A DNA stretch of 64,000 nucleotides from Pseudomonadota bacterium (GTDB lineage: Bacteria; Pseudomonadota; Alphaproteobacteria; Acetobacterales; Acetobacteraceae). Location: the NCBI GenBank assembly GCA_021801255.1, contig JAJYYH010000042.1, forward strand, positions 1 to 64,000, read 5' to 3'. Shown in pieces: positions 42,034-48,484 of the stretch (positions are counted from its first letter, which is position 1; every line of letters begins with the position of its first letter). A program made the translations under genes and the position numbers. Under the pieces are notes generated by a model. It did no database searches and was not told where the DNA came from. It saw nothing but the letters and a program-made list of their open reading frames with translations.

Positions 42034-43698
42034 CTAAGGCGCCTCCGCGGGCAGCACCGGGCGAAAGCGCGCTGGAAGCTCCGCGAGGCTTTCCGGCGTA
42101 TCGACATCACGCAACACCGCCTCCTCGCCGATTTCCACCTCGGCTACCTGCTCGGCGTGACGGGCGAGGAGGGCACGCGCCCCGGTATCGCCGGAAAGTG
42201 CTCGCATCTCGGCGAAAAATCCCCGGTCCCAGAGGATCGGATTCCCCCTCTGGCCGCGATGGGTCGGCACCACGATCCGCCGCCCCTCATCGGGATCGTA
42301 GGCCGCGACCAGCCGCTCGATGACGCGCGCGGTGATAAGCGGCATGTCGCCCAAACACACCAGCGCCGCCGCGACCTCGGCGGGCAATGCGGAGAGGCCG
42401 GCGCGCAGGCTTGCCGACAGCCCCTCGGCATAATCCGCCGCCTCGACAAACTCGATTTGCCGCCCGCGCAGCGCGGCGCGGACATCCGCCCCGCGATACC
42501 CGAGCACGACGACAATCGGCCGGGCCGGGGAAGACAGCAGATTGTCCACCACGCGCGCGATGATCGGCTTGCCGGTACGGTCGGCGAGCAGCAATTTATG
42601 ATGTGGCGCCATGCGCGACGACCGCCCGGCGGCCAGCACGACGGCGGCGATGCAAGGCCGCCCCGGCGCCGCCGCCACAACCGCCGCTGGCACCGCCCGC
42701 GCCCTCGGCAGCGGCCGGGCGCTGATATCCTTGAGGAGACCACCGACTCCAAGCCGCGTCACCTCCGCCGGCCCGACATCGAGGCCGGCGGCGAGGCGTC
42801 GCAGCACGAAATCGATGCCGTTGGGCTTCGGGCTGCCGGCGCAACCGGGCAGCACCAGCGCTGGCTTGGCGCCGATGTGCCCGATGCAGATCAGATTGCC
42901 GGGATCGACCGGCATGCCGAAATGGCGGATCTCGCCGCCCGCCCGCACAATCGCCATTGGCCCGACATCGCGCCGATCGACCACCGCCGAGGCCCCGGCG
43001 ATCAGCAGAAGTTCGGCCCCCGCGGCTTGCAGGGCAACCAGTTCAGCGCTGATCGCTGCTTCCTCGTGCTTGCAGCGTCGCGGCGGGAGCAAGCTGCCAC
43101 CAAGCCCGTTGATGCGCGCCTCGGTCGCCGCGATGGTGTTTTCGGCAATGCTTTCCTTGAGCCCCGGCAATTCGGTGAGCACCAGCCCGACCTTGAGCGG
43201 GCGGAAGGGATGCACCGCCAACATCGGCCCGGCGGCGCGCGCCAACGCTTCGACGCGGGCGAGTTTTTCTTCTCCAACCGCAAAGGGGATGATTTTTACG
43301 GTCGCCACCATCTCGCGTGGGGCAACGAGGCTGCCATCCGCGAGCGTCCCGAGGGTGAGCGCTTCATCGACGGCATTGAGCCGATCGACGGCCGCGCGAT
43401 CGACAATGAACAGGCCGCGCGCCGCCGCACTCAGATTGACCCGCCCGGTGCCGGCGCGGCTGGCCACGATCCCCGGCGCTGAAAGCGCCGCGGCGAGCCG
43501 GCTCGCCGCCTCGTTCTCGCCGACATCGCCGGCTTCGAGCTTCGCCGCGATGACCTGCTCATAGCCAGCCTCGCGCAAAGCAGCGACGGCGTCGGCGTCG
43601 AGCACCGTGCCTTTCTTGATCACGCGCCCCGGCAGGCGAAGCGTGTGCGCGAGGATCGCACCCTCGGCCTCGCCCAGCGCCACGCCGCCGAAAATCAC
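42034..43698 (-). CDS. molybdopterin-binding (MoeA-like) / MocA-like NTP transferase fusion
   Basis: IFGGVALGEAEGAILAHTLRLPGRVIKKGTVL N-domain and AAVVLAAGRSSRMAPHHKLLL nucleotidyltransferase C-domain; GTG start at 43698 (alternative 43707). Confidence 0.9.
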   Translation of the reverse strand: MIFGGVALGEAEGAILAHTLRLPGRVIKKGTVLDADAVAALREAGYEQVIAAKLEAGDVGENEAASRLAAALSAPGIVASRAGTGRVNLSAAARGLFIVDRAAVDRLNAVDEALTLGTLADGSLVAPREMVATVKIIPFAVGEEKLARVEALARAAGPMLAVHPFRPLKVGLVLTELPGLKESIAENTIAATEARINGLGGSLLPPRRCKHEEAAISAELVALQAAGAELLLIAGASAVVDRRDVGPMAIVRAGGEIRHFGMPVDPGNLICIGHIGAKPALVLPGCAGSPKPNGIDFVLRRLAAGLDVGPAEVTRLGVGGLLKDISARPLPRARAVPAAVVAAAPGRPCIAAVVLAAGRSSRMAPHHKLLLADRTGKPIIARVVDNLLSSPARPIVVVLGYRGADVRAALRGRQIEFVEAADYAEGLSASLRAGLSALPAEVAAALVCLGDMPLITARVIERLVAAYDPDEGRRIVVPTHRGQRGNPILWDRGFFAEMRALSGDTGARALLARHAEQVAEVEIGEEAVLRDVDTPESLAELPARFRPVLPAEAP

Positions 43699-43704
43699 GC
43701 CGCC
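43693..43704. repeat. 12-bp direct repeat (AATCACGCCGCC), left copy
   Basis: Identical to 44580-44591; spans the ORFan stop / mocA-like start. Confidence 0.9.
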
Positions 43705-44585
43705 CACCCGAAATCACGCAGCAGAAATCCGATCAGCGAGACGGCCAGCGAAGCGTCTTCATTCGAGAGAGAGCGAATTTCCTGCCCCTTCCCCGCTTGG
43801 CATTCCCGCTCCGAAGATTTGCCGCGCGGATGGAGGCGGTTGATGACGGAAGCGGCGTTTGCGATGGCAACGCGATCTTTGGGAACTTTATTCACCAACT
43901 TACCCAAATCCTTGGCGGTGTCGGCGACGCCGATAGTCGGCAGCCACGCGGCGAGCAGCAGCCGGGCAAATTCGCGAGAGACATCGACAACGGATTCGGC
44001 GATCTGGATGGGCGCCACGTCCACCACTTTCTCGAACCCTTCTTGGATTTCCTTCTTTTTCTCCGGGGGCAGTTTTTCTTCAATCAGTTCCGGCAGTGTT
44101 CCGAGTGTGGACATGGATTTCAGCGTAAATAACGTTTCACGGGTAAACAGAAGCTCCATGTCTACGATACGCCAAGGAGTGATAAAATCCCCACCTCCAA
44201 GAAAAATAACCGAAATACGTTTCATATTTACCAAATTATTGTGGGAATAATTTGTATAAAATTCAAATTCATTATTATGTTTTTGTCCTGCGCTAGATGG
44301 AGTAAAGGGAGAGGGGAATCTACCAAAATCCGCGTAAATTTGATTATGCGGATATGCAGAGTAATGTTCGTAAATTCGTCCCCTTCTAATCCGGCTTGTC
44401 GGGTCGAACGAATCTTCTCGGAAGAGAGTCCTAAAATTTGGCGTAATTTGTGAAAACTCCGGCTTTCCTTCCTTGATTGAACAGGAAAAAACTTCCGAAA
44501 GATGTGGCTGCGGGTCTATCGCAGAAAATCGCTCGTTAACCCCCTCAAAAACAATAGAAGAGCTATGGTGAATCGCCAGAATCAC
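43695..44585 (-). CDS. ORFan protein of unknown function (296 aa), low-GC insertion
   Basis: Uninterrupted ORF, GTG start overlapping xdhC stop, stop overlapping mocA-like start; 5' half visibly AT-rich against a GC-rich background; no family recognised. Confidence 0.75.
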   Translation of the reverse strand: MILAIHHSSSIVFEGVNERFSAIDPQPHLSEVFSCSIKEGKPEFSQITPNFRTLFREDSFDPTSRIRRGRIYEHYSAYPHNQIYADFGRFPSPFTPSSAGQKHNNEFEFYTNYSHNNLVNMKRISVIFLGGGDFITPWRIVDMELLFTRETLFTLKSMSTLGTLPELIEEKLPPEKKKEIQEGFEKVVDVAPIQIAESVVDVSREFARLLLAAWLPTIGVADTAKDLGKLVNKVPKDRVAIANAASVINRLHPRGKSSERECQAGKGQEIRSLSNEDASLAVSLIGFLLRDFGWAA

Positions 44586-44591
44586 GCCGCC
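44580..44591. repeat. 12-bp direct repeat (AATCACGCCGCC), right copy
   Basis: Identical to 43693-43704; spans xdhC stop / ORFan start. Confidence 0.9.
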
Positions 44592-45280
44592 GCCTTCCGC
44601 CCCATCGCGGCGCCGCGCCGCACCGCGACGATTTCGGCGAGGATGGCGAGCGCGATTTCGGGCGCGGTGACGGCTTCGATATCGAGCCCCACGGGGCCGT
44701 GGATGCGCGCCAGCGTCGCCTCGTCATGGCCCAGTTCACGAAGCCGCTTGAGCCGCGCCGCGTGGGTTTTGCGTGAGCCCAGCGCGCCGATATAGAACGC
44801 CTCCGAACGAAGGGCCGCGTCGAGCGCCGGGTCGTCAAGTTTTGGGTCATGGGTCAGCGTCACCACGGCGCTGCGGCTGTCGGGGGCGAAGGCGTCCATC
44901 GCCTCGTCCGGCCAGGCGGTGGTGATGGTGACGCCGGGGAAGCGCTCGGTGGTGGCGAAGGCGCCGCGCGGGTCGATCACCGTCACGCCGAAGCCAAGCC
45001 CGGCCGCCATCGGCGCGAGCGCCTGCGCGATATGCACAGCACCGACCACGGCGAGGCGCGGCGGCGGGTTGAACACCTGGAGAAACCAGCGCTCGCCGCC
45101 GATCTCGACGGTCTCGGCGGCATCCGCGCGCAACGCCGCCCGCGCCGCCGCGTTCAGCGCGGGATCGGCGTCGGGGTCGGGCAGCAGGCGTTCGGTGCCG
45201 TCGGGCAGGCGGGTGGCGCGGACGATCGGGCGTTTTGCCGCCCGCGCCGCTTGCAGCCGGGCGAGGGTTTCCGGCGTCAT
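44582..45280 (-). CDS. XdhC family protein (C-terminal Rossmann-type XdhC domain)
   Basis: RLAVVGAVHIAQALAPMAAGLGFGVTVIDPRGAFATTERFPG...FYIGALGSRKTHAARLKRL. Confidence 0.93.
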   Translation of the reverse strand: MTPETLARLQAARAAKRPIVRATRLPDGTERLLPDPDADPALNAAARAALRADAAETVEIGGERWFLQVFNPPPRLAVVGAVHIAQALAPMAAGLGFGVTVIDPRGAFATTERFPGVTITTAWPDEAMDAFAPDSRSAVVTLTHDPKLDDPALDAALRSEAFYIGALGSRKTHAARLKRLRELGHDEATLARIHGPVGLDIEAVTAPEIALAILAEIVAVRRGAAMGRKAAA

Positions 45281-45615
45281 CCGAGCTTCTCCACGAACAC
45301 CTTGACCTTGCCGCCGCAGGCCAGCCCGACTTCCCAGGCGCGCTCGTGGGTGACGCCAAAATCGAGCAGTTGCGGCGCGCCGGTGGCGATGGTTTTGCGC
45401 GCCGCCTCGGCGACCGCGCCCTCGATGCAGCCGCCGCTCACCGAGCCCGCCATGCGCCCGCTCAGGCTCACCGCCATCTGGCTGCCGGCGGGGCGCGGCG
45501 AGGAGCCCCAGGTTTCCGTGACCGTCGCGAGCGCCACATCCTCGCCCGCCGCCTTCCACGCGGCCGCCAGCGACAGCACGTCCTCGGCCTCAAAGGTCTC
45601 GTTTTGGGTGTTCAT
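45277..45615 (-). CDS. XdhC/CoxI N-terminal family protein
   Basis: VALATVTETWGSSPRPAGSQMAVSLSGRMAGSVSGGCIEGAV. Confidence 0.93.
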   Translation of the reverse strand: MNTQNETFEAEDVLSLAAAWKAAGEDVALATVTETWGSSPRPAGSQMAVSLSGRMAGSVSGGCIEGAVAEAARKTIATGAPQLLDFGVTHERAWEVGLACGGKVKVFVEKLG

Positions 45616-46808
45616 GACATTTTCCTCATCGCATCCCGCGCCGGGGCTGGGCGGGAGAGCAGGTCAACGAGCGCGCGCAGGCTCGCCAGATTATGCACCG
45701 GGCGGAATTCGTCCACATAGGGCAGCATGGCGCGCACACCTTGCGATTTGGGTTGGAAGCCTTCCCAGCGCAACAGCGGATTGAGCCAGATCAGGCGCCG
45801 GCAGGAGCGGTGCAGGCGGTCCATGTTTTCGGCCAGGCCGACCGCGCCGTCGCGATCGAGCCCGTCGGTCACCAGCAGCACCACCGCGCCCTGGCCGAGC
45901 ACGCGCCTGGCCCAGCGCCGGTTGAACTGCGCCAAAGCCTCACCGATGCGCGTCCCGCCCGACCAGTCGGGAACGATTTGGGCGATCATCTGAAACGCCA
46001 CCTCGGGATCACGGTGGCGAAGCTGGCGGGTGATGTTGGACAACCGCGTACCGAACAGGAACACCTGCACCCGTTCGCGGTCATTCGCGACGGCGTGCAG
46101 GAAGTGCAGCAGGATCTGGGCGTAGCGCGCCATCGAGCCGGAGATGTCGCAGATCACCACGAGCGGCGGCGGGCGGGTCGCGCGGCGGGCGCGCGCCAGG
46201 CTCAGGATTTCGCCGCCCCCGCGCAGGCCGGCGCGGAGCGTGGCGCGGAGATCGATCAGCGCGCCTCTCGGGTCGGGGCGACGGCGGCGGATGGGCCTGG
46301 CATCGAGCGGCAGCGTGAGGCGGCGGATATCCGCTTTGGCGGCGACGATCTCGGCCGCGCTCATCGCCTCGAAATCCATGGTTTGCAAGCGTTCCTGGGC
46401 GCTTGCGGTCAGCACCGCGTCGAGTTGTGGCGGCTCGGGGATGGCCTCGGGGGCGATACGCGGGCGCGCGAAGGCCTCGGCGACACGGCGGGCGGCAGGG
46501 TTTTTGCGCGGCTCGGGCGGCTCCTTGCGGCCCTCCATCAGCGCCATGGCGGCAGCGTGGCGGGCGGCGGTGCTATCGCGCCAGAACAGGGCAAAAGCCT
46601 GGTCGAAAATCTCGCGATGCTCGCGCCGATGCACCATGGTGGTGGCCAGCGCCGCCTTGGCCTCGTTTTTTTCCATAAGATCGATGCGGGTCAGTGCCTC
46701 GGCCGCGGCCAGGGTTTCGGCGGGGCCGACGGGCAACCCGGCGCGGCGCAGGAGATGGCCGAACTGCATGACATTGGCCAGCAACTGGCCGTTTTCAGAA
46801 TGACTCAT
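45612..46808 (-). CDS. CoxE-like VWA domain protein
   Basis: VVICDISGSMARYAQILLHFLHAV MIDAS motif; cluster context. Confidence 0.92.
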   Translation of the reverse strand: MSHSENGQLLANVMQFGHLLRRAGLPVGPAETLAAAEALTRIDLMEKNEAKAALATTMVHRREHREIFDQAFALFWRDSTAARHAAAMALMEGRKEPPEPRKNPAARRVAEAFARPRIAPEAIPEPPQLDAVLTASAQERLQTMDFEAMSAAEIVAAKADIRRLTLPLDARPIRRRRPDPRGALIDLRATLRAGLRGGGEILSLARARRATRPPPLVVICDISGSMARYAQILLHFLHAVANDRERVQVFLFGTRLSNITRQLRHRDPEVAFQMIAQIVPDWSGGTRIGEALAQFNRRWARRVLGQGAVVLLVTDGLDRDGAVGLAENMDRLHRSCRRLIWLNPLLRWEGFQPKSQGVRAMLPYVDEFRPVHNLASLRALVDLLSRPAPARDAMRKMS

Positions 46809-46973: not shown

Positions 46974-47885
46974 TCAACCGGCGCTTGCCGCCTCTTTTGC
47001 CTCGCCGACCAGGCGGGCGGCCTCGGCGCCGCGGATTTTGGCGATGTCGTCCTGATATTTGAGCAGCGCGCCGAGCGTTTCATCGACCGCGCCGGGGGTC
47101 AGCTCGACCTGGTCGAGATGGCGGAGTGCTGCCGCCCAATCGATGGTCTCGGCGACGCCGGGCGATTTGAACAAATCCGTCCCGCGCAGGCGCTGCACGA
47201 AGCCCACTACCTCGGCGGAGAGTTTTTCCGGCACCTCGGGCGCCTTGACGGCGAGGATGGCGCGCTCGCGCGGGGCGTCGGGATAATCGACCCAGTGATA
47301 GAGACAGCGGCGGCGGATGGCGTCATGCACTTCGCGGGTGCGGTTCGAGGTGATCACCACCGGCGGCGGCTCGGTGGCGCGGATAGTGCCATATTCCGGC
47401 ACGCTGATCTGGAAATCAGCGAGCAGTTCGAGCAAAAAAGCCTCGAACGGCTCATCGGCGCGATCCAGCTCGTCGATCAGCAGCACCGCTGGCGGGAGGT
47501 CCGGATCGATCGCCGAGAGCAGCGGGCGTTCGAGGAGGAATTCGCGGGTATAGATCGAGCGGGCGAGATTGTCCCGGTCGGTCTCGCCGGCGGCCTCGGC
47601 GAGGCGGATCGCCATGAGCTGGCGGGCGTGGTCCCACTCATAGGCGGCGGCGGAGAGGTCAAGCCCATCATAGCATTGCAGCCGCACCAGCCGCCGCTTG
47701 AGGCCGCCCGCCAACACCTTGGCGATTTCAGTCTTGCCGGTGCCGGGTTCCCCTTCGAGGAAGAGCGGGCGGCGCATGGTGAGCGCGAGGTGGACGGTGG
47801 TCGCGAGATCGTGATCGGCGACGTAGCCGCCTTCCGCCAAGAGCGCGGCGGTTTCGGCGACGGTGCGCGGCAGGGCGCGCGGCAC
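46974..47885 (-). CDS. MoxR/CoxD-like AAA+ ATPase
   Basis: FLEGEPGTGKTEIAKVLA, LLIDELDRADEPFEAFLLELL, NRTREVHDAIRRRCLYHWVDYP. Confidence 0.94.
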   Translation of the reverse strand: MPRALPRTVAETAALLAEGGYVADHDLATTVHLALTMRRPLFLEGEPGTGKTEIAKVLAGGLKRRLVRLQCYDGLDLSAAAYEWDHARQLMAIRLAEAAGETDRDNLARSIYTREFLLERPLLSAIDPDLPPAVLLIDELDRADEPFEAFLLELLADFQISVPEYGTIRATEPPPVVITSNRTREVHDAIRRRCLYHWVDYPDAPRERAILAVKAPEVPEKLSAEVVGFVQRLRGTDLFKSPGVAETIDWAAALRHLDQVELTPGAVDETLGALLKYQDDIAKIRGAEAARLVGEAKEAASAG

Positions 47886-48484
47886 TAGAGCATGGATCCA
47901 AGAAACAGCAGCAGGATGGCGAGGAAGATGACGCCACCGATCCAGGCCGCCAGGGGCAGCCCGAGGACGTCGGGGGGCGCCACCGGCACCGTGCCCGGGA
48001 TCATCGCCATCTCGGTCTCCGCCAGTTCCGGGGGGGCGAGGGCGGCGGCGAAGCGGTTGAAAAACTGATCGGCCAGGGATTTCGCCGTGGCGTCGATCAG
48101 GCGGGCGCCGAGTTGGGCGATCTTGCCGCCAACTTGCGCGTTCACCTCATAGCGCAGCAGCGTCGCCGCGCCGTCGGGATCGAGCCTGACCTTGGCGCTA
48201 CCCCTGGCGAAGCCGGCGACGCCGCCCTGGCCCTCACCACTGATGGTATAGGAATTCGGCGGGTCAATATCGGCAAGCTGCACCTTGCCGGTGAAACGCG
48301 CAGCGATCGGGCCAATTTTCACCGCCGCCGTCGCTTTCATCTCATTGTCGGAGGTTTTTTCCAGGCTTTCGCAGCCGGGAATGGCGGCGCGCAGCGCCTC
48401 GGGGTCGTTGAGCGCCTGCCAGACTTTTTCGCGCGGCGCGGGAATGCGCCGCTCGCCGGTCATGTCCATCGGCATTCCTTGCAC
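47885..48484 (-). CDS. CoxG-like SRPBCC protein with C-terminal TM
   Basis: MTGERRIPAPREKVWQALNDPEALRAAIPGCESLEK; C-terminal hydrophobic helix. Confidence 0.92.
   Translation of the reverse strand: MQGMPMDMTGERRIPAPREKVWQALNDPEALRAAIPGCESLEKTSDNEMKATAAVKIGPIAARFTGKVQLADIDPPNSYTISGEGQGGVAGFARGSAKVRLDPDGAATLLRYEVNAQVGGKIAQLGARLIDATAKSLADQFFNRFAAALAPPELAETEMAMIPGTVPVAPPDVLGLPLAAWIGGVIFLAILLLFLGSML

Follow-up and report, generated by a model that had tools for sequence, protein, structure and literature searches.

The locus analyzed here raises a twofold question: how did a single gene come to stand precisely between two tightly coupled genes of a metabolic operon, and what does its product do there? 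The window (the whole stretch of DNA under analysis, 64 kb in length) carries an operon of the cox/xdh type, engaged in molybdoenzyme maturation, in the order coxG, AAA ATPase gene, coxE-like VWA gene, XdhC_CoxI gene, xdhC, inserted gene and the gene for the MobA-like domain. Its features are as follows:

42034–43698, minus strand: mocA-like gene, encoding a C-terminal MobA-like NTP-transferase domain (PF12804); downstream flank, GTG start at 43698
43693–43704, plus strand: repeat copy AATCACGCCGCC at the inserted gene stop and mocA start
43695–44585, minus strand: inserted gene, 296 aa, GTG start and TGA stop; predicted N-terminal beta domain and C-terminal HEPN-like helical bundle
44580–44591, plus strand: repeat copy AATCACGCCGCC at the xdhC stop and inserted gene start
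44582–45280, minus strand: xdhC, encoding an XdhC Rossmann domain (PF13478); upstream flank
45277–45615, minus strand: gene with an XdhC_CoxI domain, in 4-nt overlap with xdhC
45612–46808, minus strand: coxE-like VWA gene, in 4-nt overlap with the preceding gene of this list
46974–47885, minus strand: AAA ATPase gene (coxD-like)
47885–48484, minus strand: coxG

The first-pass annotation of this DNA had described a 296-aa ORF between xdhC and mocA, bounded by 12-bp direct repeats and joined to both neighbors by GTGA overlaps, and this description is accurate. The 12-mer AATCACGCCGCC has exactly two occurrences within the 64-kb window, 887 bp apart, and the ORF shares four nucleotides with the xdhC stop at its start (44582–44585) as well as with the mocA GTG at its stop (43695–43698). 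The AT-rich 5' half noted at that stage is equally evident, with the GC content of the insert ranging from 0.35 to 0.60 (minimum in the 5' half, 0.35–0.48 in this part) vs. about 0.70 in the flanks. Judged by length alone, a 12-mer repeat of this kind is not striking (1.37 matches would be expected if up to one mismatch is allowed), and the notable thing about it is its exact placement at both gene ends. The stop/start overlaps, which had been considered unusual, turned out to be ordinary for this locus: the two junctions that come next in this operon (45277–45280 and 45612–45615) are also 4-nt overlaps, and tight coupling is thus the rule in this operon. No mobile-element gene or recombination site was found within the insert, which consists of one ORF and has no non-coding end, and a Pfam scan of the insert yielded no recombinase. 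A third, imperfect copy of the repeat, AAATCACGCAGC, is located at 43711–43722, still within the insert and close to its 3' end; this stretch codes for L-R-D-F-G, which is conserved in the family, and the resemblance is probably coincidental.

A comparison of six genomes of the genus (from G000, the source of the window, to G005) and of the outgroup genus G017, with junctions read upstream of mocA-like protein matches in the relatives, revealed both states of the site. The ORF is present between xdhC and mocA in three of the six genus genomes (G000, G004 and G005), and two others (G001 and G003) have an insert-free junction of the sequence GAAGGCGGCGGCGTGATTTTCGGC in an otherwise intact operon; G002 could not be scored, its contig starting inside mocA with no xdhC found. 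Subtraction of one repeat copy plus the insert from G005 reproduces the G003 junction exactly. The empty site predicted from the window is, therefore, real, as found in G001 and G003, and in the outgroup genus G017 xdhC is likewise joined directly to mocA. The two genes are also adjacent in most other genomes of the bacterial family whose junction was read. The ORF itself occurs in only 3 of 300 sampled genomes of the bacterial family, all three in this genus, and was not found in related genera. These direct junctions and the narrow distribution of the ORF bear out the proposed insertion into an ancestral xdhC–mocA junction; an ancestral operon member shared by all relatives, which would have contradicted it, is not what we observe, as two congeners and G017 lack the ORF.

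The history of the gene within the genus was read against a species tree based on gyrB, rpoB and parE, (G000,(G004,((G001,G002),(G003,G005)))), with 99–100% support. Since the gene occurs in the basal G000 and also in two later lineages, G004 and G005, a single early gain is compatible with this tree. As proteins, the three genus copies are 65–67% identical, and they group as one clade. In pairwise comparisons of the C-terminal half of the ORF, dS amounts to 0.70–1.13 and dN/dS to about 0.1–0.17, with dS values for the same genome pairs of 0.38–0.76 in xdhC, 0.57–0.79 in coxE and 0.52–0.66 in gyrB. As dS of this half is within or slightly above the range of neighboring and core genes and dN/dS is low, the copies are about as old as the genus and their reading frame is under purifying selection. 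The flanks of G003 are G005-like up to the junction (identity 0.962 and 0.911, vs. 0.895 and 0.78 to G001), as expected for a local deletion. An early single gain with losses toward G001 and G003 is the simplest reading, although a bare count of events does not favor one gain and two losses over three gains. The start codons add an ambiguous point: G004 has ATGATT in both repeat copies and G000 and G005 have GTGATT in both, a pattern which local target duplication in separate insertions would explain directly, and which a parallel change of two start codons would explain as well.

Occupied and empty alleles might instead have been swapped between species by homologous recombination in the flanking genes, with no indel at the repeat. 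The xdhC tree (orthologues L107–L111) does pair G000 with G005 (92%) against the species tree, which speaks for such an exchange. The excess similarity lies, however, in codons 39–78, toward the 5' end of the gene, and points to a short stretch of recombination that is not adjacent to the insert; the last 39 xdhC codons give no grouping of occupied vs. empty genomes. With G003 in addition retaining G005-like sequence on both sides of the junction, we consider allele exchange distinctly unlikely. A recent transfer of the occupied allele together with its flanks was rejected, since junction-adjacent identity does not group the occupied genomes.

The inserted gene, initially regarded as an ORFan, is a member of a previously unnamed protein family with about 55 homologues (full-length or partial), mostly in beta- and gamma-proteobacteria. 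The earlier statement that no family could be recognized stands as far as reference collections are concerned, with nothing above cut-off in scans of the protein against Pfam, NCBIfam, PHROGs and PADLOC, but not in the sense of an ORFan. A tblastn search against plasmids yielded six relatives that cover the full or nearly the full length (~30% identity), in Cupriavidus, Caballeronia, Nitrosospira and Polaromonas. A single-sequence scan of species genomes for homologues returned nothing, and an alignment-based scan was needed to recover 53 loci (among them L045 and L046, which are contigs of G004 and G005). One family match was obtained in viral contigs and none in a phage collection, and a PDB sequence search gave no relative of the protein. 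The family is rare, being found in 4 of 399 genomes sampled over the phylum.

A substantial part of this family is located in restriction-modification neighborhoods. Among 47 non-redundant loci, hsdS is present in the fetched flank at 12, hsdM at nine and hsdR at six; the chance of 12 out of 47 is near 1e-11 on a rough estimate of about one N6 methylase per Mb, to be taken as an order-of-magnitude guide only, given that the loci are related. At five loci (L054, L073, L078, L086 and L090) the gene start is in 4-nt overlap with an upstream hsdS, at L096 this overlap is 8 nt, and at L048 the gene starts in 4-nt overlap with hsdM and is followed by hsdS. Other direct neighbors of family genes are GmrSD, Abi_2 and AAA_13 genes, and BREX or Zorya genes are found near the homologues in Polaromonas and Nitrosospira.

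These homologues also bear on the origin of the repeat. Outside the operon they have the same ends, starting with ATGAT (ATGATG, ATGATC and ATGATT in the three nearest ones) and ending with G-W-A-A-stop; the family C-terminal end is G-W-A, and L048 ends in GGTTGGGCAGCATGA. The target GGCGGCGTGATT coincides with these ends, as xdhC terminates in Ala-Ala-Ala-stop and mocA starts with (V/M)-I-F. Judging from these sequences, a gene with such ends placed in such a target would give a perfect or near-perfect 12-bp repeat and two NTGA overlaps without any duplication. Gene-end similarity can thereby account for the 12-bp direct repeat of the occupied site and its single copy in the empty site, and shared gene ends are a more plausible source of the repeat than target duplication by a transposon. 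In the mechanism that we propose, a single event early in the genus would have placed a defense-associated gene between xdhC and mocA. Its ends (start ATGAT.., end ..GGGC-GC-TGA, i.e., G-W-A-A-stop) would have matched the target, and recombination at these short matches would have incorporated it so that it overlaps each neighbor by 4 nt. The 12-bp repeat, a by-product of this event, would then have offered a route for exact deletion, so that some lineages may have kept a working gene and others lost it precisely.

The first-pass annotation had suggested a gene-sized cassette, and a site-specific single-gene cassette that inserts at NTGA overlaps, duplicates about 12 bp of target and entered here several times independently is the corresponding alternative. 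It would account for the fact that in each of the three genomes the two 12-mers are identical to each other (also in their ATG variant in G004), for the patchy pattern of presence and absence and for the 4-nt overlaps with hsdS or hsdM elsewhere. Nevertheless, the insert contains no recombinase, transposase or non-coding end, the three genus copies are one clade with core-like divergence, and most homologues elsewhere do not have an overlap on both sides. Since the repeat is already explained by sequence that gene and target each have, and no mobile-element gene or site accompanies it, a target-site-duplicating cassette is not needed as an explanation, and we regard independent cassette entries as quite improbable. 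A broader version of this idea, a gene-sized mobile unit that has no recombinase of its own, enters precisely at NTGA overlaps of operons, preserves the coupling with both neighbors and can be excised exactly, appears to us highly doubtful; if true, it would let defense genes ride in foreign operons without breaking them.

The insertion can be compared with known modes of gene gain. In common with horizontal gene insertion into operons in general, a foreign, AT-richer gene has joined an old operon on the same strand. Unlike the usual case, both 4-nt overlaps are kept here, the repeat of 12 bp is perfect and close relatives offer exact empty sites. The insert also differs from a transposable element or an integron cassette in having no transposase or integrase gene and no recombination site.

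The second part of the question, what the protein does, was approached through its predicted structure. The following parts of the gene are distinguished:

44115–44585, minus strand: N-terminal beta-rich domain, residues 1–157, AT-rich, with invariant E57, D61, G69, G130 and E144
43698–44114, minus strand: predicted C-terminal HEPN-like domain, residues 158–296
43818–43832, minus strand: H252-P-R254-G-K256, at the place of RX4-6H in HEPN RNases

An AlphaFold2 model built with 42 family members (pLDDT 89.9) is beta-rich up to about residue 157 and forms a helical bundle from residue 174; in the HEPN bundle test the pLDDT of the AlphaFold2 model was 91.1. When the C-terminal bundle alone was used in a PDB fold search, the top five matches were all HEPN chains (1wol, 1ufb, then 4nqf and 3o10), those to 1wol and 1ufb having a probability of 0.99 and TM of 0.56–0.64 but weak E-values (0.2), which indicate fold resemblance rather than proof of descent. 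According to the model, the C-terminal domain is a HEPN-like bundle of four to five helices. The domain alone matched no curated HEPN profile, and a single member out of 47 touches PF05168 (E 0.0025), with no curated HEPN match for the others. Ten residues are invariant among the 47 members (E57, D61, G69, G130, E144, P165, R204, L227, H252 and K256), and R254 is present in all but one (46/47), defining the motif H-x-[R/K]-x-K. In the model the H-x-R-G-K stretch occupies the end of a long helix, where HEPN RNases have RX4-6H. This canonical motif is not conserved in the 47 members (no R followed by H at 4–6 residues; R250 in 31/47), and the domain is, therefore, classed as HEPN-like and not as a canonical HEPN RNase.

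The two halves of the protein evolve differently, with about 50% identity and GC3 of 0.24–0.36 in the N-terminal half vs. about 80% identity and GC3 of 0.62–0.67 in the C-terminal half among the three genus copies. A fast-changing N-terminal domain would fit a sensing role in defense, and weaker constraint would fit as well. For the N-terminal domain, searching viral structures with the full model produced no convincing fold match. Cereblon and LonA, considered as fold relatives of the full model, were rejected (TM about 0.15, probability at most 0.2).

By fold and neighborhood, the product is most likely an orphaned defense-type effector carried on the xdhC–mocA transcript. It may act as a stress- or phage-responsive effector, in which the N-terminal beta domain would sense or bind and the HEPN-like C-terminal bundle would bind or cut RNA; the modeled fold together with the gene neighborhoods would suggest RNase or abortive-infection activity, cleavage or binding of RNA and responsiveness to phage. 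No PADLOC model for a known anti-phage defense gene matched. A search for type I methylases found none in G003, G004 and G005 (G004 being 90% complete); G004 and G005 carry the gene, which in these genomes thus cannot depend on such a partner. This, the weak E-values of the fold search and the missing RX4-6H motif speak against the explanation favored here. In G000, the type I N6 methylase family is represented by three matches, on contigs C28, C38 and C56 (L136, L138 and L139), none of them with a member of the inserted gene's family alongside.

Published work on the HEPN superfamily provides a context for this assignment, describing families with altered motifs, close ties of HEPN proteins to restriction-modification operons and the case of PrrC, a HEPN nuclease held in check by its own type I system (PMC3710099). 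The present family resembles PrrC/RloC, AbiJ, Abi2/AbiF and ApeA (PMC3710099) in combining a HEPN-like bundle with a variable N-terminal domain and in its frequent location inside or beside hsd operons, and differs from them in having no RX4-6H, no ABC ATPase and no Pfam HEPN match above cut-off. Unlike hsd-linked HEPN proteins, the gene in the window is not accompanied by any hsd gene. As to the features of a PrrC-type guard, location inside an hsd operon applies to part of the family elsewhere and not to the window, and the N-terminal ABC ATPase is absent, the N-terminus of the inserted protein being a beta domain with no family match.

The main rival to an orphaned effector is a domesticated role in the operon, in which the protein would serve the cox/xdh-type molybdoenzyme pathway, e.g., as an RNA-binding operon regulator. 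MtlR-type HEPN proteins, for which such a role in an operon has been proposed (PMC3710099), set a precedent: they too are HEPN-type proteins in a metabolic operon, and part of the MtlR family has no catalytic motif (PMC3710099). Maintenance of the gene in frame and coupled on both sides in three species, purifying selection and the lack of a type I methylase in G004 or G005 are in line with this role. On the other hand, the gene is absent from two congeners with an otherwise intact operon, its N-terminal half diverges fast, which suits a sensor under changing selection more than a pathway subunit, and homologues elsewhere sit with defense genes. Unlike MtlR, the protein has no Pfam sequence match, and its family is mainly defense-associated and absent from related operons. 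Domestication is, in our estimate, unlikely. Overall, a single early insertion of a defense-type gene, followed by precise losses and with a stress- or phage-responsive effector as its product, is the explanation that we hold, as a whole, to be reasonably probable.

The locus provides a clean before-and-after case of an accessory, probably defense-related gene that enters and leaves a housekeeping operon with translational coupling undisturbed, as relatives supply the occupied, the empty and the outgroup form of the junction. In addition, the locus draws attention to an uncharacterized family, absent from Pfam, NCBIfam, PHROGs and PADLOC and repeatedly in 4-nt overlap with hsdS/hsdM, with an unusual H-x-R-x-K motif in its HEPN-like domain. 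Both the insertion route and the function are directly testable.

Several individual family loci deserve mention. On an IMG/VR contig classed as viral (L098:101–3352), the family gene starts 21 nt after an AAA_13-domain gene; domains of this type also occur in PrrC/RloC-like proteins. At L050:8001–9030, the family gene is followed by an apparent hsdS remnant (a short start, a stop and hsdS-like sequence), with an Abi_2 gene ~600 nt upstream. Uncharacterized genes with no Pfam match lie 2 and 19 nt after the family members at L052:7290–7880 and L054:8893–9798, respectively, and are possible partners. Finally, one homologue (L043 and L044; G396:C35:18132–19057) is split into an N-terminal ORF (profile positions 1–134) and a C-terminal ORF (133–299) overlapping by a few bases, as a result of either a frameshift or a natural separation of the two domains.
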